The translations under genes were made by a program, and so were the position numbers. The notes under the pieces were generated by a model that made no database searches, was not told where the DNA came from, and saw only the letters and a list, made by a program, of their open reading frames with translations. Of a stretch of DNA of 34,562 nt, positions 9,423-34,200 are shown one piece after another; the stretch's first letter is position 1, and each line of letters begins with the position of its first letter. This DNA is from a virus, in the IMG/VR virus record IMGVR_UViG_3300018421_008185, positions 1 through 34,562 of that record, one strand, 5' to 3'.

Positions 9423-10958
9423 TTAGAACTCGATTACGACTTTAATGTCTTCAATTTGGTCACCAGCACGAGTGATGGGACCTCTATTATCTATGTAAAT
9501 AATTCTTCCCGAATTTGGCTCAATCTCAGGATCGGCATAACCATTAGTAAATGCCATACCCAAGTCATATTCAGTGTTGTTGATAACACGAGTGGAAGTG
9601 CCAGATACAATCGGGAAGTTGATATCTGGGTCTCCAGACGTGCCAGAGATAGCACCCACAATCGGGTTACCACCGTCAAACTCTGTGAGACTACCTGTGA
9701 TCTCAGGGAAAATACCGTCAATTCTATTTTGATAGAATTTCAGGACTTTAGTTGTGCTATTCCAAGAAACAACACGACCACGAGCAGTCACTTGCTGACC
9801 ACCAACAGTCCTTGACTGAGTAACAATCTCGTCTGTTGTATAGTTGCCAGTAAATGTTGGCGAGAAGATTGCTGCCTTTGTGCCAGACAAAGTTAATTCT
9901 GCAGTCAATTCCTGAGTGCCAAATCTATTGGGGTTGAGCAAAAGACCAATACGACGATAATCGTTATCAGTCGGGAAGTCTCCGCTACCCTCATCGTAGG
10001 TAAACTTAGTGTTGATCATCACACGATATCCGCCCAACTCTGTGTCTGGGGCAGCACCGTGACCAGTCGGGGGAGGAATGATAACCTCTACGTTAGCACC
10101 AGCGCCAGCGCCAGCACCGATACCATTCACCTCGTCAATCACAACCTTACCGAAGGTGTAGTTAGATCCACCAGAAGTCACTGTGGCAGTAACCAACTTA
10201 CCACCATCAACCACCAGAGAAACACGACCACCAACGCCGTCGCCCTTGATGGGCACGTTTTCGTAAGTGCCGTTGTTGTAACCTGTGCCAGAAGATCCAA
10301 TAATAATAGTATCGATCTCACCGCCAACTGCATCAGACACAACAGCAGTGTCATTCAACACTGGCATATATTCGTTGGAGAAGAATTTAAGCACCTGTCC
10401 CACAGGGATGGTGTAGAGATACTTCCAACGATAACCGTCAGCAGTTGTAATAATAGATGTCGATGTGCCTGTTGGCTCAACCGTGGAAGGTTTGCCGTTG
10501 GGGTCACTGGGAGACGTGCCGTTGTAGATACACTTGTAAACTTGATACGATGAGTTAACAACGTAGAAGTCGGCGTCAAACAGTTTAGTTGCACCAGAAG
10601 ATGCAGTCTTTGTTGAGGAGTAGTCATGACGATACATGTCATAGACATAACCCAAACCACCAGTTGTCTGCTCTGGGGGAATCCAGTTAACACGACGGAC
10701 AACCTGAATAGTGTCGTTTGCCAAGACTCGCTTCAGGGAGATCATGTCAGCGAAGTCGTCAGAAAACTCCTGCAGAGAGTCTGTCGGATCGGGGGGATCA
10801 TTCTCATTATCCCAAGACTGAGGGCGACCAATAAACACATAGAGTCTATCCCTGCTTGCGCCAGCATCCAAATCGGACTGGGCGGAATCAGGACCCTCAA
10901 GTGATTTGATAAATCGCTTCGCAGTAAAAATTCTAAACTGGTCGGTAAGTAGCGCCAT
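9423..10958 (-). CDS. 8: Baseplate wedge subunit gp8
   Basis: Homologue of T4 gp8, a wedge protein that binds gp7, gp10 and gp6. Shared landmarks in order: LYVFIGRPQSWDNEN (residues about 39-53), PTDSLQEFSDDF (about 57-69), a VRRVNWIPPEQ segment, DGYRWKYLYTIPVGQV (about 175-190), SNEYMPV, and the C-terminus RIIYIDNRGPITRAGDQIED followed by IKVVIEF. All match the T4 protein as I remember it. At 511 residues it is far longer than the 334 of T4 gp8. Part of the excess is a glycine-rich insertion at residues about 209-304 (10045-10330) made of the same beta repeat as in neighbouring genes. The gene has a late promoter in the 37-base gap upstream; a GGGAG sequence upstream of the ATG is slightly far for an ideal ribosome-binding site. 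Confidence 0.93.
   Translation of the reverse strand: MALLTDQFRIFTAKRFIKSLEGPDSAQSDLDAGASRDRLYVFIGRPQSWDNENDPPDPTDSLQEFSDDFADMISLKRVLANDTIQVVRRVNWIPPEQTTGGLGYVYDMYRHDYSSTKTASSGATKLFDADFYVVNSSYQVYKCIYNGTSPSDPNGKPSTVEPTGTSTSIITTADGYRWKYLYTIPVGQVLKFFSNEYMPVLNDTAVVSDAVGGEIDTIIIGSSGTGYNNGTYENVPIKGDGVGGRVSLVVDGGKLVTATVTSGGSNYTFGKVVIDEVNGIGAGAGAGANVEVIIPPPTGHGAAPDTELGGYRVMINTKFTYDEGSGDFPTDNDYRRIGLLLNPNRFGTQELTAELTLSGTKAAIFSPTFTGNYTTDEIVTQSRTVGGQQVTARGRVVSWNSTTKVLKFYQNRIDGIFPEITGSLTEFDGGNPIVGAISGTSGDPDINFPIVSGTSTRVINNTEYDLGMAFTNGYADPEIEPNSGRIIYIDNRGPITRAGDQIEDIKVVIEF
10045..10330 (-). repeat. Glycine-rich beta-repeat insertion in gp8
   Basis: Residues about 209-304 of gp8 have no counterpart in T4 gp8. 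They hold two or three degenerate copies of a repeat with a GSSGTGY or GGSNYTFG turn, a hydrophobic strand, and a glycine/alanine run (GIGAGAGAGANVEVIIP). The same repeat occurs in the proteins at 10996-12837 and 15930-34562. Confidence 0.7.
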
Positions 10959-10995: not shown

Positions 10996-12837
10996 TTATT
11001 CATCCTCGTTTCTGAGTCTGTTTGTATACTCTACGACCAACATATTGGTTGTTGCACCAGTCTGTTGACCTAATATTTGCTCGTTAGCAGTAAACTTGAC
11101 TGCAACTCCAGGAAGGATTGACTGTAGACTCAGATAATATTCCCCAGACTTCTCTGCAGCAACAAAAGAAGTTACAGTTGCAGCAACACCAGACACCTGT
11201 CCAACAACAGTCTCTCCAACAACATATGTTGCATTAGGAGACTTGTTGTTTACTCTCAATACGGCGGTCGAGGTGTGTGCATCTCCATCTCCAAGAGCAC
11301 CAGCACCAATGATTGTTGCCAGTTGTTGTGGAGATCCACCGTCATAAACTTTATCTGCAAGTTGGAATAGTGTCAGGTTGACTCCACCCAACTCCTCTTC
11401 AATACCATATTTGGATGATGCAATACCACCGTCAAGATTTGTATCGAATTCAAATTCTGTGCCAGTATTTACCAAGTCGGGGATGCCGTCTCCAGCACCA
11501 TCCAATTCGTCATCATCTTCAAATCGTCTATTTAGAATTAGACTGAGTGGATTTGTAAATGCAACAATGTCATCCCCAATGGATTCGACAAGGGTGTGTG
11601 GAGATACGCCAGTGGCAGATGACTGTGCAGCACCAGCGACAAACTGGATAGATTTGGTTTTGTCGGCAGAATTGCCACCATCAATAAAGGCAAGCTCGTC
11701 AACCTCAAAGGTCAAATACAGAGCATGGGATACTGGATCCCAATCATAAACAATAGCAATTCTGTTTGACGCACTGCTCTGATATCTTTTTACTTGGTCG
11801 GTAACGTTAAAGATATACTGAGATACGCCATCTGCATCATCTTGCAATGTATCCAAAAAGACCTTCTGGTCATATCTAAAGTTTGTGCCTCTATCGCAAC
11901 CAGTGAATGATGTAGCAGTTTTACCTGTATATCTAACGATCTCTTTGTTGAGAAGAATTTTACCAGATCCAGGGAAGGGTGCAGTTGTCTGCACATTGAT
12001 CGTTGTATCACTGGGAGTGACATCCTCAATCAGACCAGTGATATTGTAAAGAATTGAGTTAAGTGACTGTCTGTTTCTTTGCTTCCTAATTAAGTTTGTA
12101 TCTCTAGCAAAAACAACTTTTGGAGGATTGGTATATCCATTTCCAGGACTATCAATATCAATACTTGTAATTGATCCAAGATTGATATATGCAGTTGCCG
12201 TAGCACCCCTACCACCACCACCAATAAGTTGGATGATGGGTGATGTTTCAAAGAATTCTCCACTATTGGTGATGGTAACCCCAGTAACCTTACCAAACTG
12301 GTTAACGCCCACAACACCAGTTGCACCATCACCACCGCCACCGCTGATAATGATGTTTGCATCTTCGGGGGTATAGTTTCTCCCCTCTCTTTCGATCTTT
12401 AGACCAGTAACACCGCCAGTGACAGGTACCAACTCTGCACCAGTGCCACCGCCACCTATTACTCTTGCAGTTGTGCCGCTGAAGTAGTTATCACCATTTG
12501 TTGTGACTTGGATAAAATCCAATTCACCAGTTGGAGTGAGATTGATCTTACCTTTTGCCCCATATGCACCATCATCAGTGCTTTCGATTATGAGACGAAG
12601 GGGATCGTAACCCTCTCCAGGATCAATAACCTCAACGGAAAGAATCCTGCCATTGGCAATGACAGGTCTTAAAACCGCTTCTCTGAGCGGTGTGCCACAA
12701 TTTTGGACTGTTAGTTTTGGAGGATCTGTTGGATCGTAACCCGACCCACCTTCCACAACATAAACGTCTCTAACCCCAAAGACACTATTGAATTGGGGAG
12801 AAATTATAGCACCAGATCCAGGGACTGTTCTTGGCAT
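10996..12837 (-). CDS. Glycine-rich beta-repeat virion structural protein (613 aa)
   Basis: Probable baseplate or tail structural protein; no T4 counterpart recognised. Residues about 20-245 consist of about six copies of a 38-42 residue repeat with a GxGY turn and a GGGGxGA run (IIISGGGGDGATGVVGV, IQLIGGGGRGATATAYI). Residues about 270-330 form a module with INVQTTAPFPGSGKILLNKE and FTGCDRGTNFRYD, related to modules in two other window proteins. At about 435-470 there are aspartate-rich stretches (DGAGDGIPDLV and DTNLDGG) that resemble calcium-binding loops. The C-terminal 90 residues contain two G-E-x-V-x-G-Q-x-x-G-A hairpins. The ATG overlaps the upstream stop by one base (TAATG), with no Shine-Dalgarno site, which implies translational coupling. 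Structural role and family resemblance to cyanophage virion proteins are inferred from repeats and position. Confidence 0.88.
   Translation of the reverse strand: MPRTVPGSGAIISPQFNSVFGVRDVYVVEGGSGYDPTDPPKLTVQNCGTPLREAVLRPVIANGRILSVEVIDPGEGYDPLRLIIESTDDGAYGAKGKINLTPTGELDFIQVTTNGDNYFSGTTARVIGGGGTGAELVPVTGGVTGLKIEREGRNYTPEDANIIISGGGGDGATGVVGVNQFGKVTGVTITNSGEFFETSPIIQLIGGGGRGATATAYINLGSITSIDIDSPGNGYTNPPKVVFARDTNLIRKQRNRQSLNSILYNITGLIEDVTPSDTTINVQTTAPFPGSGKILLNKEIVRYTGKTATSFTGCDRGTNFRYDQKVFLDTLQDDADGVSQYIFNVTDQVKRYQSSASNRIAIVYDWDPVSHALYLTFEVDELAFIDGGNSADKTKSIQFVAGAAQSSATGVSPHTLVESIGDDIVAFTNPLSLILNRRFEDDDELDGAGDGIPDLVNTGTEFEFDTNLDGGIASSKYGIEEELGGVNLTLFQLADKVYDGGSPQQLATIIGAGALGDGDAHTSTAVLRVNNKSPNATYVVGETVVGQVSGVAATVTSFVAAEKSGEYYLSLQSILPGVAVKFTANEQILGQQTGATTNMLVVEYTNRLRNEDE
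12100..12780 (-). repeat. Glycine-rich beta-repeat array, 613-aa protein
   Basis: About six tandem protein repeats of roughly 40 residues. Each has a strand, a G-x-G-Y or comparable turn, a second strand ending in GGGG[ST]GA, and a third strand with an internal glycine. The copies are too diverged to be recent duplications. Confidence 0.75.
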
Positions 12838-14334: not shown

Positions 14335-14342
14335 TATTTAGG
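14335..14342 (-). promoter_or_regulatory. Possible degenerate late promoter (CCTAAATA)
   Basis: Overlapping the stop of the YHYH gene, the minus strand reads CCTAAATA, one mismatch from NATAAATA and 22 bases before the next start codon. It is well placed but imperfect, so this is a weak call. Confidence 0.25.
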
Positions 14343-15933
14343 TGCCATCAAAGGTTTGAGTTGTGGAGTCAAACGTGGTAGATGTGAAGGATAGGTCAGC
14401 ACCAGTTTGACCAGCACCACCGCCAAGGACAGTAAGTGTTGCCACATTAGATTCCAAGGGTGAGTTTTGTGCAGGAGCAGGAGCGCCAATGGGTCCACGA
14501 ATCTCACACTTATATCGGTATCCCGCCATGTAGGACAAGGCAGTGAATGTCAGTGAATTGGATGTTGCTCCTGTGATGACTGCATATGCAAATCCACCAT
14601 CAGTAGATCTATACCAGCGATAACTGATAGGTCCGTTTTCTGGAAGAATTTGTGCTTGGATGCTGAATGTAACTGATGTATTTGCGTTGACAGAAGCAGA
14701 CTGTGGTTGGAGGGTAATCTGCAGTGTGGGTGGAGTGACCGTCCCTCCGCCACCTGTGGGGGGTGCAGGAGGCGCTGCAGCACCGTTGTTTGGTGGTTGT
14801 GCTATGGTTTCCCTAGTGGTGCTACCAATCATATATGGGAATGCTGGATGATCTACATCGCCAGGCAATGTTGAAAGGAAGTAAGCATATGTCCCACTTG
14901 GGAATTCGGGAGTCACGCAGAATCTGCCATTATGATAGTCAAGGTCACCTAGACCCTCTACATACTCCCAGTCCTGCATCAGAGACCCTGCAGGGGGGTT
15001 TTGAGCAGTGCTACCATATGCAGGTCTATTTTCTACTTCAATAGATCTTGCACGATATTGGGACTGCATTGGAAGAGTTGTTTGGGATGCCTGCCAAGGA
15101 TCCTCATAACCATAAGGTCCATAAATGGGAAATCCATCAAATGCAAATCCAACGATCTTTGAGTGACCATCGGGGTGCCTTAGGTTATCTCCGTTAAACT
15201 GACTGCCACCGTAGTAGTCGTTATAGTTTGCCATGGAGGCATTGTCTTTCCAGCAATCTAGAAAGTGTGTGTCATGGTAGTGATATTGACCAGTTTGCTC
15301 TGGATGACCACCACAGGCATCATCGCCAAAATCTACAGGTGATCCTTCAAAGTGAGCGTTCCAGTTGAAACCCACAGGAGGATTACCGCCATTTCCAGCA
15401 CTGGGGTTAAAGAAAACAACACCATTAGCAGAAATGCCAATAGCGCCCAGCGGCGTAGCCGACCGCCCGTTTCTTTGGTCGTAGTATGTGTATGTCCTTC
15501 CTTCTGCATATGCAATGGTTTGCGACTCTGCAACAATTAAGTCAAGACGATCATCTTCAGCCAACCAACATTCACCAGCGATAGATGTAAATACTGGTCC
15601 TCTAAAGATAAACTTTTGCTTTCTTCCATCGGAAAAAACAAAAAGGATGTTATCACCTGGGACAATTTGTCCACCACTAAATATCCCATTGTCATTCAAT
15701 GACAAGTTGATAGATATCACAAAACCAGTTTGAGCGAATACGTTATCGTCAAACTGTCTGGGGGTGCCAAACTCACCACCTCTATATGTAAACGTCCATT
15801 CAAAATCCTGCTCAGTTACACTGTTTGGATTATTTTGATTAGGAAACGTCCCGTATGAAACGGGGGTGGGAAGACCATCCCCCGTTACGGTTAGTTGTTT
15901 AGTGCCAGGTTCGTAGCTTGCAGTTGCGGTCAT
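14338..15933 (-). CDS. YHYH-domain protein with C-terminal Ig-like domain (531 aa)
   Basis: Residues about 1-150 are a beta-rich N-terminal region of unknown fold. Residues about 158-375 form a YHYH domain: the name-giving GQYHYHDTHFLDCW is followed by DGHSKIVGFAFDGFPIYGPY, then NGRFCVTPEFPSGTYAYF and FPYMIGSTT. The YHYH domain occurs in bacterial and phage proteins of unknown biochemical role; its many His, Asp and Cys residues suggest metal binding. A proline/glycine linker (AAPPAPPTGGGG) leads to an Ig-like domain (about 398-505) with RWYRS and YKCEIRG at the usual core Trp and Cys positions. The ATG overlaps the stop of the giant gene by four bases (ATGA), with no Shine-Dalgarno site. Ig-like domains on virions often bind surface glycans. 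A fibre-like adhesive role is likely but unproven. Confidence 0.9.
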   Translation of the reverse strand: MTATASYEPGTKQLTVTGDGLPTPVSYGTFPNQNNPNSVTEQDFEWTFTYRGGEFGTPRQFDDNVFAQTGFVISINLSLNDNGIFSGGQIVPGDNILFVFSDGRKQKFIFRGPVFTSIAGECWLAEDDRLDLIVAESQTIAYAEGRTYTYYDQRNGRSATPLGAIGISANGVVFFNPSAGNGGNPPVGFNWNAHFEGSPVDFGDDACGGHPEQTGQYHYHDTHFLDCWKDNASMANYNDYYGGSQFNGDNLRHPDGHSKIVGFAFDGFPIYGPYGYEDPWQASQTTLPMQSQYRARSIEVENRPAYGSTAQNPPAGSLMQDWEYVEGLGDLDYHNGRFCVTPEFPSGTYAYFLSTLPGDVDHPAFPYMIGSTTRETIAQPPNNGAAAPPAPPTGGGGTVTPPTLQITLQPQSASVNANTSVTFSIQAQILPENGPISYRWYRSTDGGFAYAVITGATSNSLTFTALSYMAGYRYKCEIRGPIGAPAPAQNSPLESNVATLTVLGGGAGQTGADLSFTSTTFDSTTQTFDGT

Positions 15934-16290
15934 GCGTCGTCGAAGATTTGAGCAGGACTGAAGTTGGCAATGATTGTCGTGCCGATCTGGACCGACAAGA
16001 TAGCAGAGTTACTGTAGACAGGTGTAGCACCAGCAGCAGTAATTGCCACTCTGTATTCGTCACCATCATCTTGTTGTGTCGTGACACCAGTCGGGAATGT
16101 AGAAGCGTTAGCGCCAATGATGTTAGTCCAGGCGGTTTGACCGTATTCCTTCTTCTGCCACTGATAATTCAATGTAGTTGTATTTATCGCACCATCGCTT
16201 GCCCTTCTAAATTCAGCAACGACTGTGAATGCAGCATTTTGACCCTGGTTAACTGTCACGTTAACTGGGCTGCTGAGGATAGCGACCAGA
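15930..16290 (-). other. C-terminal Ig-like domain of the giant gp7
   Basis: Segment with SSPVNVTVNQGQNAAFTVVA, a core Trp in LNYQWQKKEYG, and DGDEYRVAITAAG followed by a final strand. This is the layout of a bacterial or phage Ig-like domain, but the usual second core Cys is replaced (YRVAI). The next gene also ends in an Ig-like domain. Confidence 0.65.
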
Positions 16291-19200
16291 CCATCTTCAA
16301 CTACGATCGGGTTGCCCTGATAATCGGTTGCTTCTCCTGCATAGACATCTTGACCGTTGTTGACGGGCTCGCCCACGGGTGAAACAAAATCATCTTCAAC
16401 GGTATTCTGCACAGCGATGAGTGGAGCACCATATGAAGCACCAGGACTCTTAACTTCAATTCTGGAGATACCCATCATTGGAGTCACGCGAGCGTCAAAA
16501 CCAGTAGAAGAGATAACCTCAACGTTTGGTTTGGATGTGTATCCGTCGCCAGGGTTGGTGATGTTTGCACTGATCACCTGACCGAGCGTGATGTCGGCAA
16601 GTGCTTCAGCGTTACGACCCTTAACGGATCCTGTGTATTCAAAGGTAATCAGGGAGTTGGAAGACTCGATCAGAGCAACCTCACGAGCAAATTCTTCACC
16701 TTCAATATTCAATTCATCACCAGTCTCAATCGGAGGCACGACTGTTGCAGAGATCACGTCAGCGTCAGATCCGATGTAGGAGAATCCAACGAATGTAGAT
16801 CCTGCGCGAGGCACTTCAGAGAAGATAATTCTAGAACCGACAATCTCATAAGAGACTCCTGGCTCTTGAATGATGCCGTTGAGCGAGATCAGGATGTTAT
16901 TTTCTGGCAGAATTGTTGCCGAAGAAACGCCCTCTGTCAAAGTCAGTGAGTAGAAGATACCATCCAACTTCAGGTTAAAGGACGACTTCAGGGAGTCAAA
17001 CTCAAAGCTGATATCGTCAAGTTGACGGAGTTTGCCGACGTAGTAACCAATGAATTCGGATCCAACTTCGGGAGGCTCAGTAAACTGAATCTGATCAGAG
17101 AATGCTGTGTATGCAGCATTAGGAGGTTGCAGAATGCCATTAACAAAGACCAGCAGGTGACCAGCGGGATCTGGGAAGTATGCCTGACCATTCTCAATCG
17201 AGAGTGAGAAATCAGTCTGCACACCATCAAATCCACGGAAGTAGCGGTCAACTCTACCTTCAAGGGTCGAAGCCGTTGTAACTGCAGCAGACCAACCATC
17301 ATCACCACGGATGGACATGTTATTGTAGAATTCACCAACAACCTGCTCAAGCCAAACTCTTGCAGTAATGCCACTTTGCTCAACAGCAGCGACCTTGCCA
17401 TATGCGGCATAGTCGGTTTGAGTAACGTTACTAACAGTTGCGTAGATGGAGGGGAAGTTTGTGCCAACGTCAAATTTACCAATGTTGTTGCCAGAGATAT
17501 TCAGAGCAGCAGCAGTCTCTCCCAATCCCACGGGTTGCAGATTTGCGATCCACAGTTTGTGAGGTGTGATGGGATTTGTTGTTGCATCATATGGTTGATA
17601 CTTAGTGACGGTGGCAGTGAATCCAGGATTCTTCTGCACAGTGCCTTGGAGGAGTGTGACCTCATCTCCAGGTCTGAATGTGGCAGCAAGACCAGACTCA
17701 ACAAACGTAGCAGCAATATCCAATTCAATAACAGAGACGCCATGAATGGTGTCATTCACTTCGATAACGCCGTTGGGTTGATAGATGCCCTGCAGATCCA
17801 GGATGTAATCTGTCAAACTACCATAGATGATGTCATTGCTTTCCCAGGAGTTTTGGATTGTTTCCACATCCATCACAACACGACCACTTTCATTGCTGAT
17901 AATAGCGCCAGATTTGTTTACATAAGAAACAATATCTGCTTCTGTGTTATCTGCCTTTTTGAAGATCACATCGCCGTTGGCATAATCGCCAAGGTCAACG
18001 TTGATCAACATGCGATCGGTTTGCAACTCAATGGTGCCTTCGGTAGCAGAATCTTCGCCCACGAGGACATCACCAGTGACCCACGCAGCACCTGTCTTGT
18101 TGATAACTTTTAGAATTGCATAGGTATTGCTTTCGTAGTAGTTAACTTGAAGGATGGTGCCAATCGACGTATTATCGCCATTTTTGTAGACTCTTTCATT
18201 GTTAGTGAATACTGATGTAATAGGATCAGTAAGATTATTAACTCTAATGTATGTGAATGTCTCTTTAACAACTGCAGTGTTGAAGGACTGAGCGGCAATT
18301 TCACCATAGACATCAGAAGATGTGCCATAAAGAATATCTGCAGTAATGAATCCGCCTTGATATGGGGTGTCTGTTGGAGGGTTGCCATAAGTGGTAGTTT
18401 CTCTCTCAACACCAGATCTCACAACAACTTGGAAGAGGTGTTGATTTGTGTCAGATGTATCAAGAGCAAATGACTGATATCTGGCATCGTGCGTGGAGAA
18501 TTCGCCAATCTCGAAGAATGAAGCATCAGCATTCAAGACATAGTAATAAACCTGATTGATGCCACCCAGAAGACTGCCCGAAGAAGGAATGTATTGGACA
18601 ACATCACCACGACGGAAGAAGTTTGCACGATTGATTCTAACTCTAAATTCTGCTCTGTCATATCCAACAGGGACAGTCGGAGTCAGGACCACGAGTTGTG
18701 GATCGGTATTCCAGTCGAAACCTTCATCATAAGTGGTGCTGAGGTTAACAACGTCAGTGGAAGGCACGAAGGTTGTTTTTGCCTCAGTTGGGAAGATGGA
18801 TCTTTCCAGTGCAAACTCAAACGGGTTAATGGAGGAATCCATGTCAAACTCTGTGGACTCTTGATCCCACTCAGGACGATTGGGTGGAATGTAAATGCCA
18901 GGAGTTGTGATATAGGGTTGCCAACCAGCAGATGTTGGGCTATAGATGATGGACTTGACGTATTCTCTGATACGAGTCAGATGATAGATTAGGTGCGTGC
19001 GAGTGATGTTTTGATAGACAATAAAGTTACCGTCACCATCAAACCAAGAGGAAAGTTTATCAAACGCAGCATTGTTACCTCTAGTGATGATGTCGTAGAT
19101 CACAGAATCAATAACTTGATCTGCAAAGTCTGCATCACCAGCGTAAGATGGGTAGAAAGTGACAGTTTGATCGTATGCTCTCTGCTTGATTGCCTCTCTG

Positions 19201-22200
19201 TTGAAGTGGATCAAGCGTGCATCAACTTTGCTGCTGTTGGTGCCAGCACCAAAGGCAGTTTGATACATATCGAAGATGGTAGCGATTGCCTGACGCACGT
19301 CATAGCAGCTGCCCTGGTTATATTCCGTGGGGGCAGTATATGTCCCATCAGTCTTAGTGACCGTGGTGCCATAATAAGTAAGACCATTGCCAGCAATACC
19401 AGCATCCACGCCTTGAATTAGGATGTCAAACAATGTGTCGATTGCAGTTGCCTGCTGACCACATGCCTGATTCCAATCTGCTTGGTTTGTGCTTCCAACA
19501 GAGTAGTCCCAAGTAACGGTGAGATCTCTGATGGGGAGATCGCCAGAATACTTACAAGGCCAGATGTTGGGAAGATCGCCAGAATAACCACCGCCAACTG
19601 TCTTAGGATATGTCTGGGCGTTGAGACCAGCAGGATCTGCAACAGTATCAGTGAGGACTTGAATAAGGGCATCTACAGCGTCATCAACGTCAGTGTCGCT
19701 AACGGCAGAAGAAATAGCAGTCACGCTATATGTGTTGCCAGCAGAAACAGTCGGATTGCCACCCTGATAGATCTGCTTGGCAATATCTCTAGCAGTATTG
19801 AAAATCCAAATGGACTCATTTGCCTGAGAAGTGATGTGTTGCAGATTGCCAGAAGAAACGTAGTATTCTGCAGAGGTGACCATCATGTTATCGCCACCAT
19901 TTTGCAGGTTCCAGGACATCCAATACAGGATGTCTGCAACGTCATGCATACAATTTTCAGATCCACCAGGAATCACCAGGGAAGGATATTGTGCTTGACC
20001 ACGCAGCACTGCTTCCTCAGCAATGAAACGGATGTTTCTTTCAATAGATCTTGCAGCAGCAATTCTATTGTCGGAAGCGCCATTTCTTTCGTAGGATTCG
20101 TAAGTGTAGGAGTTGTCGTTGTGACCATCGATGTTGAAACGACCAAAACCGTTTCTAATGGTAAGAATTGCCATTTCCTTGGCAAACTTAAACACAGTCT
20201 TAGTTGCTTCCTCCTCACCTTCAATGTGGGAAAGGAATCCATCTTCTCTGATATAGAGTTGACCTGCTTCAAAGATTTCAGCGTTGCCACCAAACCTAAG
20301 GTCATGGACCAGGGCGCCAAGAATGTCAACAACGTCATCAACGCAATTTTGACGACCACCAGGAACCTGGAAGTCTGCAAACTTGGACAAGTCATTCATC
20401 ATGCCAACTGCTTCCTTGGCAATGATGTGCTTGTTGCGCTCGATCATATTTGCAGCGTCAACATAGCGATCTGACTGATTTCTAGTCTGATCAAACTGCT
20501 CAGGATCCAGAGTAACTGTAGTGTCTCTATATGCACTTCTGGAGGTGTAGATTGCGCTGTAATATTCATCTTGATAGAGTGCAGCAGCTCCATTGCTAGC
20601 AGCGGTTTCTCCAGGTCCGAGCAGCAGGTTGTTTGCTGCCTTCATGCACAAATCCTTAGCAAACTCAAATGCTTCAAGCATCGGTTGCAACTCATCTGTG
20701 ATAAACAGAATTTCGTTGTCGGAATTGAGATAGAAGTCAATCGCAGCCTGTGTTTGGTAGTTGCCACCAGTCTGGAGGTCGGCAATAAGGGCGGGGATGA
20801 TATAGTCCTTCATGTCCCGAATGCAAGCATTGCGATCGGGGATATTCAGAGTATTGACAGTTTGCCCACCGAGACTAATTGTGTAGAGGTTTTCAATGTA
20901 ACCGACTGTTTCTTCAGCGATATAATCGCGGTTTTTCCAGATCAAGTCACCAGCATTTCTAAATCTGTGACCAGTAGGAGCAAGCTCATCAGCGATATAA
21001 TCGCCAAGGGTGTCGAGTCTTGTTTCTACCTGAGTCGTGCCAGAAAGGGTATGGGGGATGCGAAGTTTGGTGGTGTATGTGCCAGACAGATCGGCAGATG
21101 CTGTGTTGATCACATACTTGCAGAGTTTGATGACTTCTCTCCAAGAATAGAGAGTCTGCAGCAACTCACTGCCAATAAACTTCAGATCGCCACCCTTGTT
21201 TCTATAGAAGCGTGCGTTGACGATAACGTTGTAGTTACCACCTTCCTTGAGGTCTTGGACAATAGCAGGAATGATGTAATCTCTAGTATCTCTGATGCAG
21301 ATATTTGTGCCACCATAAGATCCAGCAGCAGCACTGTCACCAGGAATAACAAAGTCGGGATAGTGTGCCTGCATGATGCCGACTGCTTCTTCTGCAATCC
21401 AAGCAGCATTCGCAGAAATGATGTCTGCAGAATCTCTGTAGATTTCATTTCCGAGATCAATCTCTTCAATAGTGATACGCTTGTTTTCATAATCAACGGC
21501 ACCAAGAGTTGCAGAAGAAATGTTAGTGCCAGACAAAGTAGCAATCACATCGCCAGTGCCAACAACAGCGCCTTGCTGAGCATTCAAACCAAGGACAACA
21601 CCAGTCCTGGTGAAGTCTGTGGTGGTTGGACTTGTGAATGTAGCAGTGCGATCTGCATATCCTTTCCTGACCAGGAAGTTATCGAGATATCCATCAAGGT
21701 TATCGCCGCCGCCAGCGTTAGATCCAACATGACATTCTTGACTAATACCATAGTTGTTATTGTCAGCATCGCTGGAAACTTCAGCACCATCAATAAACAA
21801 CTTTGTCGTTGATGTCTCAGAATCTTTAGAAACTGAAATGTGATACCATGTATCTACCACTAGACCAGCAGATGTTGTCTCAGAAACAGCAGTGCCGTTT
21901 CTCATCCAAGAAACTGTGTTGCCAGAGTTAGAAACAATCAGATAACCAGCGGAAGTGTCGCTCACATCCAGTCTATTATCGACCAGAGTAATTGTGCCCG
22001 TCAGAGAATTGAATCTGAAGTAACCTTCGATTGTGAAAGATCCATCTTCAAAACCAAAGTCATAGCTACGAGTTGCTTGACGGATATAGGGGCTACCGCC
22101 AGAGGTAAACGAATAACTTGAAGTATTGTTTTGAATATTTGTGTTGTAGATGACGTTGCTGATGGAGACATTGTTTGATTCCAGACTGGAGTTTGTAATC

Positions 22201-25200
22201 AACTCTCCATTTTGGAATGCGCCTGTAATATTTCCACCATAGATCCACTTCAGACCAGAGTTGGACCCCTTGATTGGAGTGGTAGCATTGCTAGTGATAC
22301 CTCTAAGTGTTTGACCAGCAAAGAAGATCTTATTGCCACCCTCAGCATCTTTGTATGCAAATTTAGTAACACGAATAACCTCACCCGACTGATATCCACC
22401 ATCGGTGATGATAACCTCAGTGGGAGCAGTGCGGGTAGCATGTGACATGTTACCGTTGGTGTAAGACAGTGTGTAGATGCTCAGAAGAGAATCGACAAGT
22501 GCCGTCTCAGTGTTACATGGAGTTAGAGATTGATCTGGTGTGATCGATACATCGAAGAATTGTTTCTTGCCATGGACGCCAGTAACAGCGACTCTAGGAT
22601 AGAAGTAATCACCACCAGCATGAGTGAAGTGCAGGTGTTGGAGGATGACACTAGATCCGTTGCTGAATGCAGGAGTGCCATCAACTGTGATGCTTAGAGT
22701 GCCATTCACTTCATCATAAGTTGCACTCATGACATTGTGGGTTGCTGATGCAGTGCTGACTTTGCCAGATCCAACATAAACAAAGGAATCACCAGGATCC
22801 AGAGATACAACAGGGACAGCGACACTGAAGGTATTGCCAACTAGACCAGAAACGGTATGTGCCGTTGCCGAATTCTTGAGACATTCTTTAGCAATAGTTG
22901 CAACTTCTGCATAGATGTTTGTAACTTCAGTTGGTGTTGCAGTGGAGTTATCGTATGCGATGGAATATGTGCCAGCATCATAAATTCTGCTGTTTCCACC
23001 ATAACGAATGTCATACGCGATTGCTTCAATGACATCTTTAATGTCGTCGAGGCAGTCATTGTCATTGCCCGTGGAAATGCTGAATCCAGGGTTTGCTGTC
23101 TTATAGACAAACAGACCTTCTGCAGCAATAAATTCCTTATTCTTCAGGAGAAGGTCAGCAGCATCAATGCCATTGTTGCCGCCTGCAGTTGTGGGATCTG
23201 CATAGAGACCAACGATCTTAGGACCACCAACACCTTCTGAAGTATAAGAAATAGCACCAGTTAGGTTGTGGGTATTCTCCGCAGCGAGAGATGTTGTGAT
23301 GATATTTGTCAACTCTCTGACTGTTTGCTGGATATCCAAGCAATTAGTCAGGCTTGTGTTGTTACCTGCGCTGTAGTTTGCGTCATATGTGTAACCAGGA
23401 GCAGTGCCACCATAAGATGCAGGATCATTAAGGACTGCCAAGTCCTTAACAAACAGGAGGTTATTCATCGCATAATACATCATGTCTCTTGCTTTCAGCA
23501 GTGCTGTAAGAGACTCAGGCACCTCGCCATACAGACCATTCAGCAGATAGTTGCCAGTTTCATCAAAATAGTTTTCAGCAAAGAATTGCGAATTAAACTC
23601 ACCACCAGAAGCAACATCATTTGCAATGGCGTCAACAAAGTATCCAACATCTCTACGGCACTTCTCTTGGTTTGGTGTGAAGGAAGGCTTGGTCGATGCA
23701 GGAATGTCTAGAAGATTTCCAGCAGTCAACGCCTCATCTTGCCATGTGTAAATTGTTGTCAGAGCAGCTCTAACATCAGCACAGGACTCGGGGTCGTTGT
23801 TATCTGTATTGGTGCCTGGGGTGCCATATGGATCTCCAGGGGATACATCTGCAGTAATTGATTCATCGACATAACCAACTGCTTGATCACTGCTATTGAC
23901 AGCAGTCCAAAGACCACCATAGTTATTTGTGATTGCAGATTCGCAGTAAGCCTTTGCTTGACCCAAAGCATAAAGTAATTCAGAAGTGTTTCTGTCGTAA
24001 CTTACAGTATTTGTATCTGTGAAATACTCATTGATCCACTGCAGTGAATAGAGGTTGCCACCAGAATGAAGATCCAGTGCTACCGTTTCAACCCAAAGTC
24101 TCAGGTCGCTCAGGTATCCGTCCTTGTCACCAGATGGTGTTGCAGGATACTGGGTCTTAAGATCATCATATGCATTGTGGATGATCTTATCAATATTTTT
24201 AATCAGTAGGCGATAAGCATCTCTATATCTGGAGGTGGTGTTTGTTTGGATATCTCCAGGGTAGTAGAAGTCTGGATGCACAACTGCAATTTCCCTTTCT
24301 GCTCTGTCAATGATTTCGTCCTTATTGAGACGAATCAGACGAGCGGCATCATATGCTCTATTGGATGCATTTGTGGTTACATTTCCATAGAAAATGGATC
24401 TGTTTCTGAGTTGATCTCCCTTAGCGAAAGATCCTCCAGTAAGATTCTCATATTCAACTTCAGTGCTTCTAACCTCTTCAAAGTCGAGGAAGTCTTCATT
24501 GATTCTGGCACTGGAATCTGTTACAGAGACTGGAGTGATGCTGGACTGAGAAATGTCATCAAGAATGATGTTGGGATTCTGAATAGCAACCAGTCTTTCA
24601 TAAATCAGACCGAAGAATGTAGATCCTTGGTTAATGATAAGAGTGTCAACTGGTTGACCATTGTTGGGATCCAGGTATGGGCTGATGTAGATAATTTGAG
24701 CGACAATCTTACTCGTTGCCGAATAGATATACTCATTCAATTTGAGGTCAAAGATACCAGTTTCAAATCTTGCTGTGCCAGATGTCTTACTAACCAACAG
24801 TTCGTCAGTCAGGTTACCATCTTCGTCAATGTTTGTGGTTTCGACCAGGGCAGTATCGCCCTCAAAGTTGGTGATAGACTCGCCAAACTTATAGATGCCC
24901 TCAGTATTCAAGAGAGTGACGCTTTCAACGATTGCGCTGAAAAGAGTTGTCCTCTTAATCAATTCACTGATCTCGAAAGGACCATCAGTGATGTTGATAA
25001 CATCAATGTGGAATGTCCCAGAGTCAACAACAGTTGCATATGCCTCAGAGAAGTCTCCAGTAACTTGCTGACCGATGGTCGGGAAAATACCTTGAGGGTC
25101 GGTCAGTTGGATTCTATAGACGGGGACAGTTGCAACTCGGATTGTGCGATATTTAACTTGAGATGCTGCCTTGGGTGGCTCATCAAAAACAATTTGACCA

Positions 25201-28200
25201 CCAACAACACTATATGCACTCTGGGGTGCTTGGATCACGCCATTCAGGGTGATAACCAGTTGGTTGGAATTGACAATAACTTGCTCACCCTCCACCGTAA
25301 TTGGGAAGGTTTTTTCAATTCCATCAAATCTGCCAGAGATGTCATCGATTTTCTTGACGATAGATGTCAAGATTTCCTCAGAAGAAGTCAGTCTCTTATT
25401 TCTAAACAGGACTTCAGTGTTGTTGTAGTCTGTGTAGACGGGTTCGGCAGCACCGAAAGATGTAATTTGGTTGACGTTGGAGTACTCGTTAATGTTGACC
25501 TGCTTGATAAACTCAGTGCCAACACGACGACCAGAAACGTCCTTACCACCAGTCAGTTGCAGCTGACCAAACAGTTTGAAACCAGCAGGGTGGTTGTTAT
25601 CCAGAATCTGTTTCTTCCACTTGGTGATGGGAATCTCAGAGCTGATAACGTAAGAGAAGTTTTGGTAGAAGAAGGAGTCTTGGATCTTCTGAATAATCTC
25701 AGAAGGTTTACCAACATCATCTGTGAAACGACCAGGAGTCGAGGTCAGGGAGTCAATATTCAACACACCCTTGGCGATGCTCAGGTTGTCGATAATACCA
25801 GATGCTTTGGACACCTCACCGTTGATCTTTTCTCCAACAGCAAAGTTGCCTGTATAGTTGACAATCTTCAGGATCTTGGGACCAGACTGCCAACCAGTGT
25901 TAGTGGAGACATAACCAGTCGCAGATGCCAATTCGGGGCTGCTGCCTTGATAAATTTTCTCACCAGCAAGGAATCTAGAAGTTGCCACGACTGCTTCTGC
26001 TCTACCACCAAAGACCTCAGTCAGAAGAGTCTGACGACCTTCACCTTGAGTCAGGAAAGTGATATAGTCACCAGCAGCTGCTGCCTCTGGTGTCAGAGCA
26101 AATCTCAACTGGTCAGAATCCAGACCATCAGCGATTGCATAGTAAATCTGACCTTCAACCAACGAAGTCAAACCAACACTGCTAGGTTTGGGCAGGATGC
26201 CAGTCGTTGATCCAACATCATCAGCACGCAGTTGGACTTCAGCAGCAGTGGTAATGCCATGAGGGAAGTTAAACTGCAGATAGTTGAGGTCGAGGTTAAT
26301 GACATAGTTAAACTCAGACTTCAGAGTAACCACGGGCTCGGAAGAATAACCACTACCAGGATTCTTGATTTGAATCTCATTCAAACGGTTGTTTTTCACA
26401 ACAGCAACTGCTTCGGCACCTGTGCCACCACCGCCAGAGATGACAACAGCAGGAGCAGAGGTATAACCAGCACCAGGATCAGTGATCTTGATCTCTGTCA
26501 GAATAGATGTATTGAAGAGTTGCAGGTTGACTGGGAAGGAAATCTCAGGACGCAGAGTGTAGTCATGGGAATAACCGAAACCAAACTCATTATTCTTGAG
26601 TCTCTTGATCTTACCAATGTTTTTACCTGTCAGGAAGACAGAAGCACCGCTACCTTCGCTGGGGATGATAACGCTCAGAGCAGCACCAGATCCAGCGAGA
26701 GTGGGTCCAAGAATACCTGTGATACCATCAACATCGATAGATGCTGTTGTGTATCCTTTACCAGGATCGGAAACTTGAGCAGAGGTGATAGCACCAGATC
26801 CAGTCTCATCATCAAGAGTAACTGTAATTGTAGCAAGACCACCTTCTCCGTCACCAGCAATAGGCACCTGATAGTAAACTCCAGGTTGATATTCTGTGCC
26901 ACCATCAATAATTTCGATTCTTTCAATTTGACGGAAAGATGCAATATCAGAAACCACAGGAAGTTTCTGATAGAAACCACCAGGAGACACAAGTTTGATT
27001 GTGTTAATCGGACCAATCGCCTTAACGGAAGTGGTGGAATAGTAACTATATGGGTTACCATTTTCATCATCTTGGACCTCAGCGTTAGTGGTCTCTGGCT
27101 CAACAAGAAGTGGGAATTTGAATTCGGTTTGACTTACAACCTCAGAGATTTTGAAAGTGCCATCGAAAGGTGTCTTAATGACATCGATGAAGGAATTAGA
27201 TCCAACGGGGGAATCTGCACCAACTCTTGACGGGTCGAAGTAGTAAGAAATATTGGTAACGTTACCAATGGCAGAGAATTTCACATAAGGCTGGCTACTA
27301 ACACCAGACACACCAGGGGTGCCAACTCTAGTAATGTTGTTGAAAGAGTATTCGAGTTTATACTGGTTGTCTTGTGCAAACGACAGATAGTAACCGAAGT
27401 TTGTGCCATCACTAACGTCAAAGACATATTGATGGTTTCTGATGAAGTTAATCGTGGGATGCTTAGCGTAAATGTTTACACTAGCAATAGTGCCTTGGTC
27501 AAATGTTGGAGCACCAGTAGCGGTGTCTCTGATCTTGAAGATGAATTCTCTAGATCCAAAGACTTCTTGGACGAAGAAAGATCCATTAAATTCATCTGCA
27601 ACAAATCCTTCAGTATAAAGGACTTCATTGACCACATAATTGTGGGGAGTGAGTGATGTTGCGTAAATCAGATCAGTGAGAGCACTGCTGCTTCTCTTGA
27701 TATCTTTCTTGAGTGTGCAAACCAACTCAACTTTCTTAACCGAGGCGAAACCAGAAATTGTAAGGACCTTTTCCTTATCTGCACCCTGGTCATCGATTGT
27801 GATATTTGCAGAGCTGAGAGCGACCACATCACCAGGAATGTAAGAAGATGCAGGTTGCACATCCAGAATTTTGACTTGGTAGTTTGCGCCAGCGTCAAAT
27901 CCAAGGAATCTTGCATAATCTGAAAGTGCTTCCTCTGTGGATATCCAAGTCCATGTAACACCACCATCGCTAGCATCACCAGTCAGATGGACAGGAGCAG
28001 TGTCACCAGATGTGCCAGCAACTGCAACTTCATAGACGTTTCTCTTCCAGAAGACTCTGTATCCAACAGGATACAGGACACCTTCATCCCATCTCTCCAT
28101 ATCAGATCCCAACCACTGAGGCAGGGGATACGGCTCCTCTTGAATATCGATGGTAAATTGACCAGCGGTCCTAATAAACACCCAAGTAATTGATCCGTCA

Positions 28201-31200
28201 CTTACAGCACCAGTTGTATGAGTCGGAGGAGTTACACCAGAGGTGCCACCTGCTTGTGCCTCATAAATTCTGCCACCATAGTAAACTCTATCGCCAGTGG
28301 CATATGCTGTAGCAGTTACCCAAAGATCTTCTTCCTCAATACCAACAAACTTACCATCCATGGTATTAACGTCTGTTGCTTCAGTGGATTGGAGAAGCTC
28401 TCCGTTATCAAATGTGCCAAAGATCTTACCAATTTTGTATGTTGTGCCAAGACCAGGATTGGTAGTGGTGCCAGTCGGCACATCAACAATAGTGCCATAT
28501 GCTTGGACAACACCGCTGTCGTTAACTTGCTGAAGAATTGATCCCTTGGTGAATTTAGCGTCTTGATTGAGGGTAAATTCAAAGATGTTGTCGATCTTGC
28601 TGTATCCAGCATCTTTAATGTAGAATTTGGGGATGACGTTTGGAGTGACAAACATCTTCTGACCATTCTTCACTGGGACAGTAGAAGACTTGGAGGACAG
28701 AGTTTCTTTTGTATTTGTCCATGTATATGTCTGGACAGTGGTATACAGAGACGGAGCATCAGAGAAGTCCAGAAGTTGCAGACCACCAGCACCAAGATCC
28801 CACTGATCAACTGCAGGTTGTGTTGTAACCTGAGTCCAAGTGCCAGCAGTAAATTCGGAAATCGTGAGATTGACGTGGTTAGTTGCTTCAGTGAGTGTAT
28901 AAGTCCCTCTAGAAGTGGAGTGCTGTCTGTCGATCTTGACCATGACGATATCAGAATCGACACTGGTCACTTCAAACTGCTCAGTGGGCAAAGTAAATGC
29001 ATTCGCATCAGTAAACTCAGCTTTACCTGACATCACAACATCGTCGATGTTGCCTTGGAAACAAAGGGAAGAAGTCTGAGAAGAATCTCCACCAACAGCG
29101 ATGTCACCAACATTAACGTCAATTAGTGACTGATATGTGATAGCAGGATTGCCATTAACAAATACTGTAAAGTCCCAAACACCAACAGCGGTATTCTCCT
29201 TAACTATAGCAATGTGGACCCAAGCACTAGATCCAAATTCAGTATAGTAAGTGTTGGCAGCAGACACACCCACCTGGGTGCCGTTGATGTCCAACTCAAC
29301 CTTTCCTTGATCAGCGTCACCATTGATGCCATTGATTCTGACCTGACAACCAGTAGAGGAATCAATTTCTGTAATGTCGAAGAAAATTGGAGTTGTATTC
29401 TGTGCTGCATATTGAGCAGTTGCCATGTTAAACCAACCAGCAACAGTCCAATTCAAAGCCGATGAATCAATGTCAGCATAAAGGAGTCTGTTTGGTGCAG
29501 TGAATTTCAGCGACCCTGTGCCAAACTTGTAAATTGCTTCATCGATTGATGCATCTCCAGGCACAGCAATGCTGAATGTGCCAATATTTCTCTTGGTGGT
29601 GTCGTAATCGTCATCACTGGCGTCATCAAATCTAAAGACTGCAAACTGCTCTGGGACGAGTCTTTCATTGATGACGATAATGTCACCAGAGTTATCAACA
29701 ACAGAAGTTTTGTTTCTCGATCCAACCTGATCGGTAGTTTCGATGATGCTTTCATATTGAAGCGTGCCATCAAACTTAAGGGAATGGATGGTTGTTGCTT
29801 TTCTATCTTCCGCATAGTCAATAGTAGTAGTAATGACAACGTTGCCGAAGATGTCAACGTGGAAACCAGTTGCATTGATGGAAGTGTAGTCTCCCTGAGG
29901 AGTCATAGTTTTGATAAACTTCCAAGCATTTGCATTGTTTACATCAGAAAGAGTAAACTTACCAAATTGAATTCTTTCAAACTTACTATTAGCGTTGTTA
30001 AATACATCCCAGCAGATGAATACGTCACCATACTCATCAATTTCAAACTTGGAGTTTCTTACATAACCACCACCGATGGGGGGAATCTGCTTGACGTAAT
30101 CAACTTCGATGTTTGCCCCATCGAAGAAGAATTCACCATAAATGAGGTTATCTGTATCAAAGTTAACGCCAGTGAAGAAGAATCTGTCATCGGAGATCCA
30201 CTTGATTTGGTCAATTCTTTCATCACCATTGGAAGAAGCAATCTTACGCTTCTCTTTGATGTCGCCATCATTGTTGGATTGAATGACCCAGATATCCATC
30301 GCATCTAATGCGTTAGTATCTGTATAACCAACCAGATAGATTGACTTATTCTGATCCAGATAGATATCACTTACGAAATCCCTTCTGGCAGGACCAGAGA
30401 TACCTGCGATAGATTTCTGCCACTGTAGAGTGCCTGTGGGGGCATTCTGAGCGTCTCTTTCGGAGATATACTTACCAAACCAGATATCAGGGTTAAATGC
30501 TGCGTTGTTGGGATCATATGTTTGGCCTGCAACATAAATGGCGTCGTTTTCTTCTGTGTCATCAACATACAGAGAAACGAATTCCATTCTCTTGACGCCA
30601 GCGTTGTTGGGCAGCAAAGTCCTAACCCAAAGCACATCTCCATTGACATCAAACTTAGCGAGGATGCCGAGCATATCGTCATCTTCGGTTTCTTCAAGAG
30701 ATCCACAAACGTAGTATTCTCTCTTGCTGGTAATTGTCGAATCGTGGACCTGCAGAGTGCCACCATCATTCAGATATTCAGACAACCAATATCTAGTCTT
30801 GGTAAACGATTGTGGGTGACTGACACGAATCTGCGGGGGGTCGTTAATATCAAAACCATTACCAGAGTTGATGATATTAAAGGAATCTGCAACACCATCG
30901 GATCTGAGGTTAATTGAAAACTCACCATCTTTACCATTGTTGCTGATCAGCTCATAAGTGGGAGGAATGGTCGCTGTATATCCACTACCAGGGATATCAA
31001 CGGTAACATCTTCAATACCAGACACCACCTTAACTTTGAAAGTCTTGTTGGTGTTGGCGGTGATGGGCTCAGAGTTGACAATGATTTCATCGCCAGCAAT
31101 CAAATCATGATTCTCAGATGTTGTGATAACACCGTAGGGTCTATCGTTGATGATCTCCTTACTATATGACGTGACTGCAACACCTTTAATCGAATCGATG

Positions 31201-34200
31201 ATTGCCGATGCGCCAAAACCACCTGTGCCTTCGTTGTCAAAGAAAATAGTGTCATTGACCTGATAAGATTGACCAGGGTTTTCAATAACGAAACCATCAA
31301 TCTGTGCAGTTTCAAACTGAGTAACAGTTTCAATGTCAATATCGACTTTGGACTCTGCAGAAACTTTCGGGAAGTAATCATAAATTTGCAGGGTTGCTTC
31401 CTCGGTCATCTCCAGAAGCTCTTGTTGCTCTAGAGCATCGATGATGCCATCCTGATTGCTATCTTGAATCTCAAAGATGATGGGCCAACCTTCATTCTCT
31501 GTCGTCAGGACATCAGACTCTTGGTTTGGTTGACGCTCAACATCGATATCAACCTCAACAAAAGGCACACGATATCTAACAACGTCTGTGGGGATGTTTT
31601 CTTGAGTTGCACCTTGAGACAGGTTCCAGGAGTCTGGGAGTGAGTTGAATGCTCCACCCAAGATGTATGGAAACTGAGGAATACCTGCATCAGAAGAGTC
31701 GATGGTTACAAAGTATGCATAGGTGCCATCGGGATACTCTGGTGTTTTGCAGAAACGACCATTATACTGATCGAGATCACCAGACTGGAAGACATACTCA
31801 TAGTCGGGCACAAAGGATCCAGCAGGATAGTCCGAAAGCAAAGGACCATCTACCCTAGCGGGGTTTGTATTGGTCAGAGCGTCATAGACGATCTCATCTT
31901 TCAGTTTGTAAGATGTGCGAAGTCTTCTGATACCACTGTTTTGGTCAGTGGGATCGCCATAACCATAAGGTCCATAAATCGGGTTGCCGTCATATGCCCA
32001 ACCCAAGATTGGAGAGTGCTTATAGTTTGTCTCTAATTCTTGGAATCTATTCGTTTCTGCATTGAGGAAGACGTTATCGCCAACCACATAACGCAATTCC
32101 TTGGGGTCGGAGAGGTGGGCATATTCACCACCATATTGGTTGTTGAGACCAGTAAAGACGTAACCTCTAGCAACGTCATACTTGGAATTCAACTCATATT
32201 CAAAGTTTTTATTCCATTCAAACACCTGCGCTTCAAACGTTGCAAAATCGCCAACTGCTTCAAGTCTAACAGTGGTGTTACCTTGGGTATAGTTAATACC
32301 TCTGTTTACGATCTCAATACCAATTACTTTACCAGCGTCTTCACCAGTAGTTGCAATAGTCGCCTTAGCAATAGCACCAAATCCATCACCGTTGATAATG
32401 ACTCTAGGAGCAGTGGTATAACGTCTACCAGAGTTAATAGTAGCAATAGACACGATACGGCCATTCAGGACGATCGGTTGTGCTAGAGCACCTTCACCAG
32501 AGGTCACAGTGACCTTAGGAAGCGATGTGTAACCACTACCAGCATTAGTCAAAGTGACAGACTGGATAGGACCACGAATGTTTGCAATAGCAGTAGCACC
32601 CGTGCCACCACCACCAGTAATGGTGATGCTAGGTTGGGAAGTGAATCCACTACCAGGAGATGCAACCAGAATTCTGGTGATAACACCATTAGTAACCACA
32701 GCGGTGCCAGATGCACCTGTGCCACCTCCACCAACGATGGAGATTAGTGGAGAAGTTTCATAACCACTACCACCATTTGTGACCTCAAAAGAGGATACGC
32801 TACCGTTAACGGTAACAGTTGCAGACGCGCCAGCTCCACCACCACCTTCGATCAAGACTACTGGGGGAGCACCAGCATCATAGTCTTGACCAGCATTTGT
32901 AACACTAATACCAGTAAGAGGACCAAAGAGAATTGCCTCAGCAGACTTATATGTCCAAATAGAGACACCATTCACCCATGCACCAATAGCGGTGTTGGGT
33001 TTGATCTCTTCTCTTTCTGAAACGGTATTAACAACCCTGGGGATCCTAACCAGTTTTCTCTGGTTACCAGGGATAAGTGCCGATCCAGTAAAGGGTCCAA
33101 TCTTGTAGTTTGGCAGACCAGATGCTGCCACATACACAAAATTATTGTTAAAGAAGGAGTTTTGAATATTAGTCGTAAACTCGGTAACGACTCTATTGAT
33201 TGCAGGTTCTGTTGACTTACCTCTATTGAGGTCAACGGAAAGCAGAATATTGCCAACAGGAACAATGTCGCTAGGGGTGTCGATTCTATACGAGAAAGTA
33301 TATTCATCGATACGAGAAGAAACTTGGAATGTGCCGTTGTAAATAACTGGGTTTGCACCATAGATTGTGACGGTATCTTCCACAAGCAGACCGTGGGGTT
33401 GCTCTGTGGTAACAGTTGCAATCTGAAGAAGACCACCAGGCTCGATGTTATCGACCTGAATCAGTTTCTTAACATTGTAGAACCAGGATTCCAGTCTTTG
33501 CTCACCAGGGGAGTCGGATCCCAAAGCAGCAACGTTGAGTTTGTCACCTGGCAGGTAGTAAGATCCAGTATCATCCAGAACAGTGCCTGCTGCTTCAGCA
33601 ATACCAAGCACACGCATCTTCACTTCATTGCTTGTGCCTTTATTGGCATAAATGAAGATATTGGACGAAATCAAAGACCCTGGATCCCAATCTTCGACAA
33701 CACCATTTTTAGATCTGGTGCATTCGATAAATTGGTTGAGTGATTTTTCCTTATACTGAACTTCTTCAGTCTCAGAAATAAAGAATGTGCCATTTCTCTC
33801 TGGCCATCCAATAGTGGAGTCAACAGTGATAATCTGATCTGTTGTAGTCAGAGGCTCGACAAGACGAGTGTTGTATGGGATTTTGAATGTCCCAACAAGT
33901 GTTTCCTCAGAAATGACCAATTCGTAAATTGTATCTTCACCTTTAATGATGGAGATTGCATTTTCAACGAGTGCCGAAGCATATTTGACATCCTGGTCAA
34001 CTTCGTCGGCATATTGGACGATCTCAGACTCAATTAGGTTTACTGCAGACCCAGAAACGATCTGACATCTCAAAATCGTGTCAACAACCCAAGTTGCAGC
34101 AGATGGAGAGATGATTTGATCCTTTGGATAAGAAATATCGACTTCTTCACCAAACAGGACCTTAAACAGGAATTTGGCGCCAAGAGCAGTGCCCTTTGCC

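Follow-up and report, generated by a model that had tools for sequence, protein, structure and literature searches.

The closest described counterparts of the locus considered here lie in the tail of bacteriophage T4. Gp8 of T4 (334 aa; PF09215; PDB 1n7z) is present as a dimer in each baseplate wedge and is a chaperone of gp6; gp7 and gp8 together form a platform that binds gp6, and in the star form there is contact between gp9 and gp8, as set out in PMC3004832. The same paper describes Domain I (PF22639) of gp18, the T4 sheath protein, as exposed on the tail and as binding the baseplate and the retracted fibers. BW3TFN/A511 gp105 (6hhk) and a phi812 baseplate protein, at 172-176 aa and without inserted modules, look like a minimal gp8 core: approximately 170 of their residues align to the predicted structure of the gp8 described below, with Z scores of 11-12. 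The cyanophage gp8s make up PHROG 438, which matches our gp8 over its full length (residues 1-511, E=1.4e-210) with a family profile that also covers the block of interest; no difference was found, and the family is not described as module-bearing in the text searched.

The window, that is, the whole 34,562-nt stretch of IMG/VR virus record IMGVR_UViG_3300018421_008185 that was analyzed, comes from a virus very near cyanophage P-TIM40 (gp8 identity 94.3%). Six proteins are encoded in succession on its minus strand: a gp7-like giant of 6176 aa, a YHYH protein of 531 aa, a gp9/10-N-like protein of 491 aa, a 613-aa protein, gp8 itself (511 aa) and, last, a protein of 2481 aa. The features to which the argument refers are these:

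9423..10958, minus strand: gp8, baseplate wedge subunit, 511 aa (PF09215, Phage-Gp8, E=6.4e-17 and 62.1 bits, above the Pfam cut-off of 25; PHROG 438; model against T4 gp8)
10065..10322, minus strand: two-unit GxGY module of gp8, aa 213-298 (profile bounds; six predicted strands, 10-residue pLDDT means of 79-95 over aa 211-300)
9549..9893, minus strand: second gp8 insert relative to T4, aa ~356-470 (alignment with T4; aa 361-438 against small barrel domains, Z <=4.8; weak match to the 2481-aa protein)
15930..34460, minus strand: giant gp7-like protein, 6176 aa (PHROG 701; weak PF23786 Baseplate_wedge match at aa 76-116, E=0.015)
26652..26933, minus strand: module of the giant nearest to the gp8 block, aa 2510-2603 (blastp, profile, tree and hhalign)
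32265..32924, minus strand: tandem GxGY array of the giant, aa 513-732 (repeat profile searches)
30804..31304, minus strand: further GxGY units of the giant, aa 1053-1219, gapped (repeat profile search)
26313..26498, minus strand: GxGY unit pair of the giant, aa 2655-2716 (repeat profile searches)
16401..16625, minus strand: GxGY units close to the C-terminus of the giant, aa 5946-6020 (repeat profile search)
10996..12837, minus strand: 613-aa protein, directly upstream of gp8 (PHROG 22827; PHROG 708, baseplate wedge)
12049..12774, minus strand: GxGY array of the 613-aa protein, aa 22-263 (repeat profile searches)

The start of the giant is a GTG, as listed; its frame is open to 6210 codons. 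A YHYH domain occurs twice in this region, at aa 727-921 of the giant and in the adjoining 531-aa protein (window 14338-15933), and a 68-nt stretch is 74% identical between the two. Three viral contigs (L181, L182 and L183) share a 291-aa stretch with the window's giant at 100% identity.

The sequence-only reading had singled out window positions 10045-10330, corresponding to gp8 aa 210-304; the module proper comprises aa 213-298. It is glycine-rich and of beta character, and is made up of two units of the pattern G-x-I-x-x-V-x-I-x-x-x-G-x-G-Y. That reading was right to call gp8 enlarged (511 aa against 334 aa in T4, whose gp8 has no module), and right that the block resembles repeats of the gp7-like giant and the 613-aa protein: blastp, profile and hhalign comparisons place the likeness above chance. 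A profile made from 8 gp8 blocks scores E=1.5e-26 with the giant ORF and 4.2e-7 with that of the 613-aa protein, and hhalign aligns the gp8 block with the family of the 613-aa protein at E=5e-7. The nearest relative of the gp8 module is the single module at aa 2510-2603 of the giant and not the tandem arrays. Membership of gp8, the gp7-like giant and the 613-aa protein in one repeat family is thus supported by sequence comparison. The same repeat is found in PHROG 701, 22827, 708, 2885 and 460, which comprise giants, 613-like, neck and hub proteins, where it mostly forms tandem arrays; kyanovirid gp8, in contrast, has a single two-unit module. Within the cluster the module carriers are gp8, the giant and the 613-aa protein, a module search finding none in the other three (531-aa, 491-aa and 2481-aa). 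The carriers had been described as the products of three adjacent genes, but two module-free genes separate the giant from the 613-aa gene, and the carriers are therefore not in a row.

How common is the module among gp8s? We assembled 177 gp8 ORFs from 174 loci or records, and omitted 17 of them as not full-length. The remaining 160 derive from 14 phage or window records and from two viral contig scans (the best 80 of at least 597 relatives and the best 80 of at least 592), seeded from block-bearing gp8s with peptide patterns that lie outside the block. The module is found in 158 of these 160 (i-E<=1e-6) with an iterated profile that was partly trained on those same gp8s; the exceptions are T4 and contig locus L099, and reversed sequences gave 0 matches at i-E<=1e-6. 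A profile of giant modules containing no gp8 at all recovers 108/160 at E<=1e-3, including 72/73 marine-type contigs and excluding T4, and a plain gp8-block profile matches 145 of the 177 ORFs. The sequence-only reading had named, as evidence that would count against it, a block universal in marine gp8s and devoid of profile similarity to the gp7 repeats. The first half of that picture holds (12/12 kyanovirid-type phage or window gp8s and 73/73 marine-type contigs have the module), while the second does not, the profile similarity being strong.

In an alignment of 13 gp8s, every kyanovirid has the block and T4 lacks it; Cr30, phiM19, Mendera and ORM_20 have the second of its units at least. 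Over wide distances the copy number varies, being 0 in T4, 1 in the kyanovirids examined and 5-6 in two environmental gp8s; two modules are found in 7/160 gp8s, those of Mendera probably being one module that is split. The two multi-copy proteins are an 1808-aa gp8 with 5 GxGY modules between its core halves (L131:5959-11382) and a 1543-aa gp8 with 6 (L144:5950-10578); other long gp8s have 1333, 1216 and 1205 aa. With T4 gp8 as the query, 1437 phage records are matched; among the matches listed, 39/40 cover at least 86% of it and span <=1029 bp, and therefore have no room for the block. The giant module is conserved as well: used as query it matches 306 phage records, 292 of them covering at least 80% of the query. 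Of 19 phage records searched with a repeat profile, 16 contain the repeat, T4 not being one of them; most of its occurrences are in structural genes, among them those for giants, 613-like proteins and gp8. Neither the gp8 module nor a link to Domain I is reported in the accessible portions of the literature, including PMC10966104, PMC9230969, PMC3037559, PMC2984593 and PMC3004832, subscription journals lying mostly outside the search.

If the block and the repeats of its neighbors are alike, is this a matter of descent, and if so, how old? The resemblance could be merely a compositional effect of glycine-rich low-complexity sequence. When gp8 is compared by blastp with the five other window proteins, its match to giant aa 2450-2607 (E=1.1e-10, 54.7 bits) does lose most of its signal with SEG masking on (E=0.032), and a first small profile, built on 10 repeat units taken from the giant and from the 613-aa protein, failed to tell gp8 from shuffles. 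However, 1000 gp8s with composition-matched shuffled blocks reach a maximum of just 30.8 bits, conserved positions are collinear in the gp8 and giant modules of 9 genomes, and profile-profile alignment of the gp8 block with the giant module gives E=3.8e-12. Since neither the shuffles nor the reversed-sequence controls attain the observed scores, we reject a low-complexity artefact, an explanation to which we can give scarcely any credence. Another possibility, suggested by the occurrence of three repeat-sharing genes in one cluster and by the 5 and 6 copies in the gp8s of two contigs, is that recent local recombination or gene conversion among neighboring baseplate genes brought the repeat into gp8. 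Nine genomes with both copies bear on this. In the module tree, their gp8 and giant copies fall into separate clades (local support 0.993); mean module identity is 75.9% among gp8s and 67.1% among giants, while gp8 and giant modules are 39.7% identical within a genome and 40.4% identical between genomes, and its own genome's giant copy ranks first of 9 for just 1/9 gp8 modules. DNA identity is low (only ~68%, over 31 nt), and the module is also found in gp8s across the kyanovirids and in Cr30, phiM19 and Mendera. Because the clades are separate and two copies from one genome resemble each other no more than copies from different genomes do, the spread through local recombination put forward earlier finds no support as a recent event; we reject it in this form for the kyanovirids compared, on the module tree and the within- and between-genome identities, and consider it very improbable overall. 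By these computations the gp8 module and giant aa 2510-2603 are old sister copies, a sequence-based assignment to paralogy without recent exchange.

The block has six strands in the predicted structure of gp8 (from 46 sequences; mean pLDDT 87.9, pTM 0.82), which superimposes on T4 gp8 with Z 18.9 and an rmsd of 3.5 over 272 aligned residues. The core fold is shared and the C-terminal motif is kept; T4 gp8, in contrast, has neither the GxGY module nor the second insert, so that window gp8 carries two inserts relative to T4. Within this T4-gp8-like fold the module is predicted, with good confidence, as a domain. The second insert, absent from the sequence-only reading, has predicted strands, and part of it aligns to small barrel domains; compared with the 2481-aa and 613-aa proteins, its best i-E is just 0.0033, a weak match to the former. 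The corresponding model of giant aa 2440-2730 is poor overall (pLDDT 59.8); the strand order that it predicts for the module looks similar to that of gp8, with 10-residue pLDDT means of 83-93 over fragment residues 71-160. A structure search with this fragment returned nothing at Z >=5, and gp18 was not returned; the model being poor, the missing gp18 match says little.

Gp18 enters the argument through the gp8 model. Residues 216-296 of gp8 align to residues 99-188 of gp18 (three entries; best Z 5.4 over 74 residues, rmsd 3.1), a Z that is under the tool's level for trusting a fold match; the aligned part of gp18 falls on the exact bounds of Domain I, and six strands are predicted in the gp8 block. 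A Domain I profile run over 2332 ORFs has its best non-gp18 matches in GxGY stretches: the Mendera protein at the gp7 position (2.9e-6), L094 (4.6e-6), ACP17 (1.4e-4, from a record that was included because of such a match) and L157 (7.5e-4), with the best reversed domain at 0.42. Fifteen of the top 20 non-gp18 matches (15/20) lie in GxGY modules, which account for 5.8% of residues; three control segments of gp18 place 4, 0 and 0 of their top 20 there. The top-20 loci are related, and this enrichment is therefore not an independent test. PF22639 (Gp18_dom_I) finds the same Mendera protein at 3.6e-5 and ACP17 at 0.0055, both below cut-off; over 21 phage records it passes cut-off only in the three of T4 type, with sub-cut-off matches in 10 others, several of them in gp7-type genes. 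PHROG 26741, the gp7-like family of Mendera, compares with gp18 Domain I at 7.6e-5.

Domain I has no direct sequence match in the window: PF22639 finds nothing in it at E<=10, the gp8 block included, and the block thus falls outside this Pfam family. Direct profile-profile proof that the gp8 block is Domain I failed, hhalign giving a probability of 1.1% and E=0.048, which lends no support; the giant module (0.01), a generic giant repeat (0.0023) and the array of the 613-aa protein (0.0026) were the other queries in this comparison. An iterated search from gp8 arrives at T4 gp18 only at 0.0031 in a lax run and, unconvincingly, at 3.2 in a strict one. Taken as a whole, the evidence is suggestive: the gp8 module may be related to gp18 Domain I. 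The sheath protein of P-TIM40 (L345:466-3237) is 923 aa long, against 659 in T4; it is without a Domain I of the T4 kind and seemingly has other repeats there, a profile search for the GxGY module in it being negative.

What might the module do? The explanation that we favor, and think rather probable, is that the block is a compact two-unit beta module of ancient residence in gp8, acting as an exposed accessory docking domain. It would have entered gp8 ahead of the radiation of the marine T4-like phages and would then have been passed down with gp8; in the distant past its family would also have been copied repeatedly into gp7-like giants, into the 613-aa protein and into further proteins of the virion. 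The module would stand out from the gp8 core and would add contact surface at the baseplate periphery, the place of the gp6 and gp9 contacts in T4, for docking neighboring wedge proteins or fibers. Exposure, docking role and partners are what we infer, the model for docking being T4 sheath Domain I; our proposal is that an exposed module has been reused on sheath and baseplate.

Other functions can be envisaged. In the assembled wedge, gp8, the giant and the 613-aa protein might interlock through their repeats: the modules are homologous, and T4 gp7 and gp8 do jointly form the gp6-binding platform (PMC3004832). We nevertheless regard such interlocking as unlikely, since the gp8 module is present in phages where a paired giant module was not found, Cr30 and phiM19 among them, and pairing therefore cannot be its general role. 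The large arrays in baseplate and fiber-like proteins of marine phages would fit a module that binds host surface glycans during adsorption. That role seems to us quite improbable: the module matched no carbohydrate-binding family, and there is one conserved copy per gp8, unlike what is expected of a fast-changing receptor binder. (Mean identity over 9 genomes is 77.0% for the gp8 module, compared with 83.4% for the N-terminal core.) The docking domain accordingly remains our preferred reading of the block, and it can be taken one step further. The GxGY module and gp18 Domain I might be one mobile, exposed docking domain of T4-superfamily tails, kept on the sheath in T4-type phages and, in marine and soil relatives, on gp8, gp7 and other baseplate or neck proteins, at times in long arrays; tail decoration would thus have been relocated between sheath and baseplate. 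We are evenly divided on whether this is so.

Judged by the gp8s examined, it is the compact T4 protein that departs from the norm, gp8 cores usually carrying inserted beta modules. Of most interest is a possible common origin of the module and gp18 Domain I. It would offer a testable link between a very common and unexplained baseplate repeat of marine phages and a domain of the T4 sheath for which both structure and contacts have been established.
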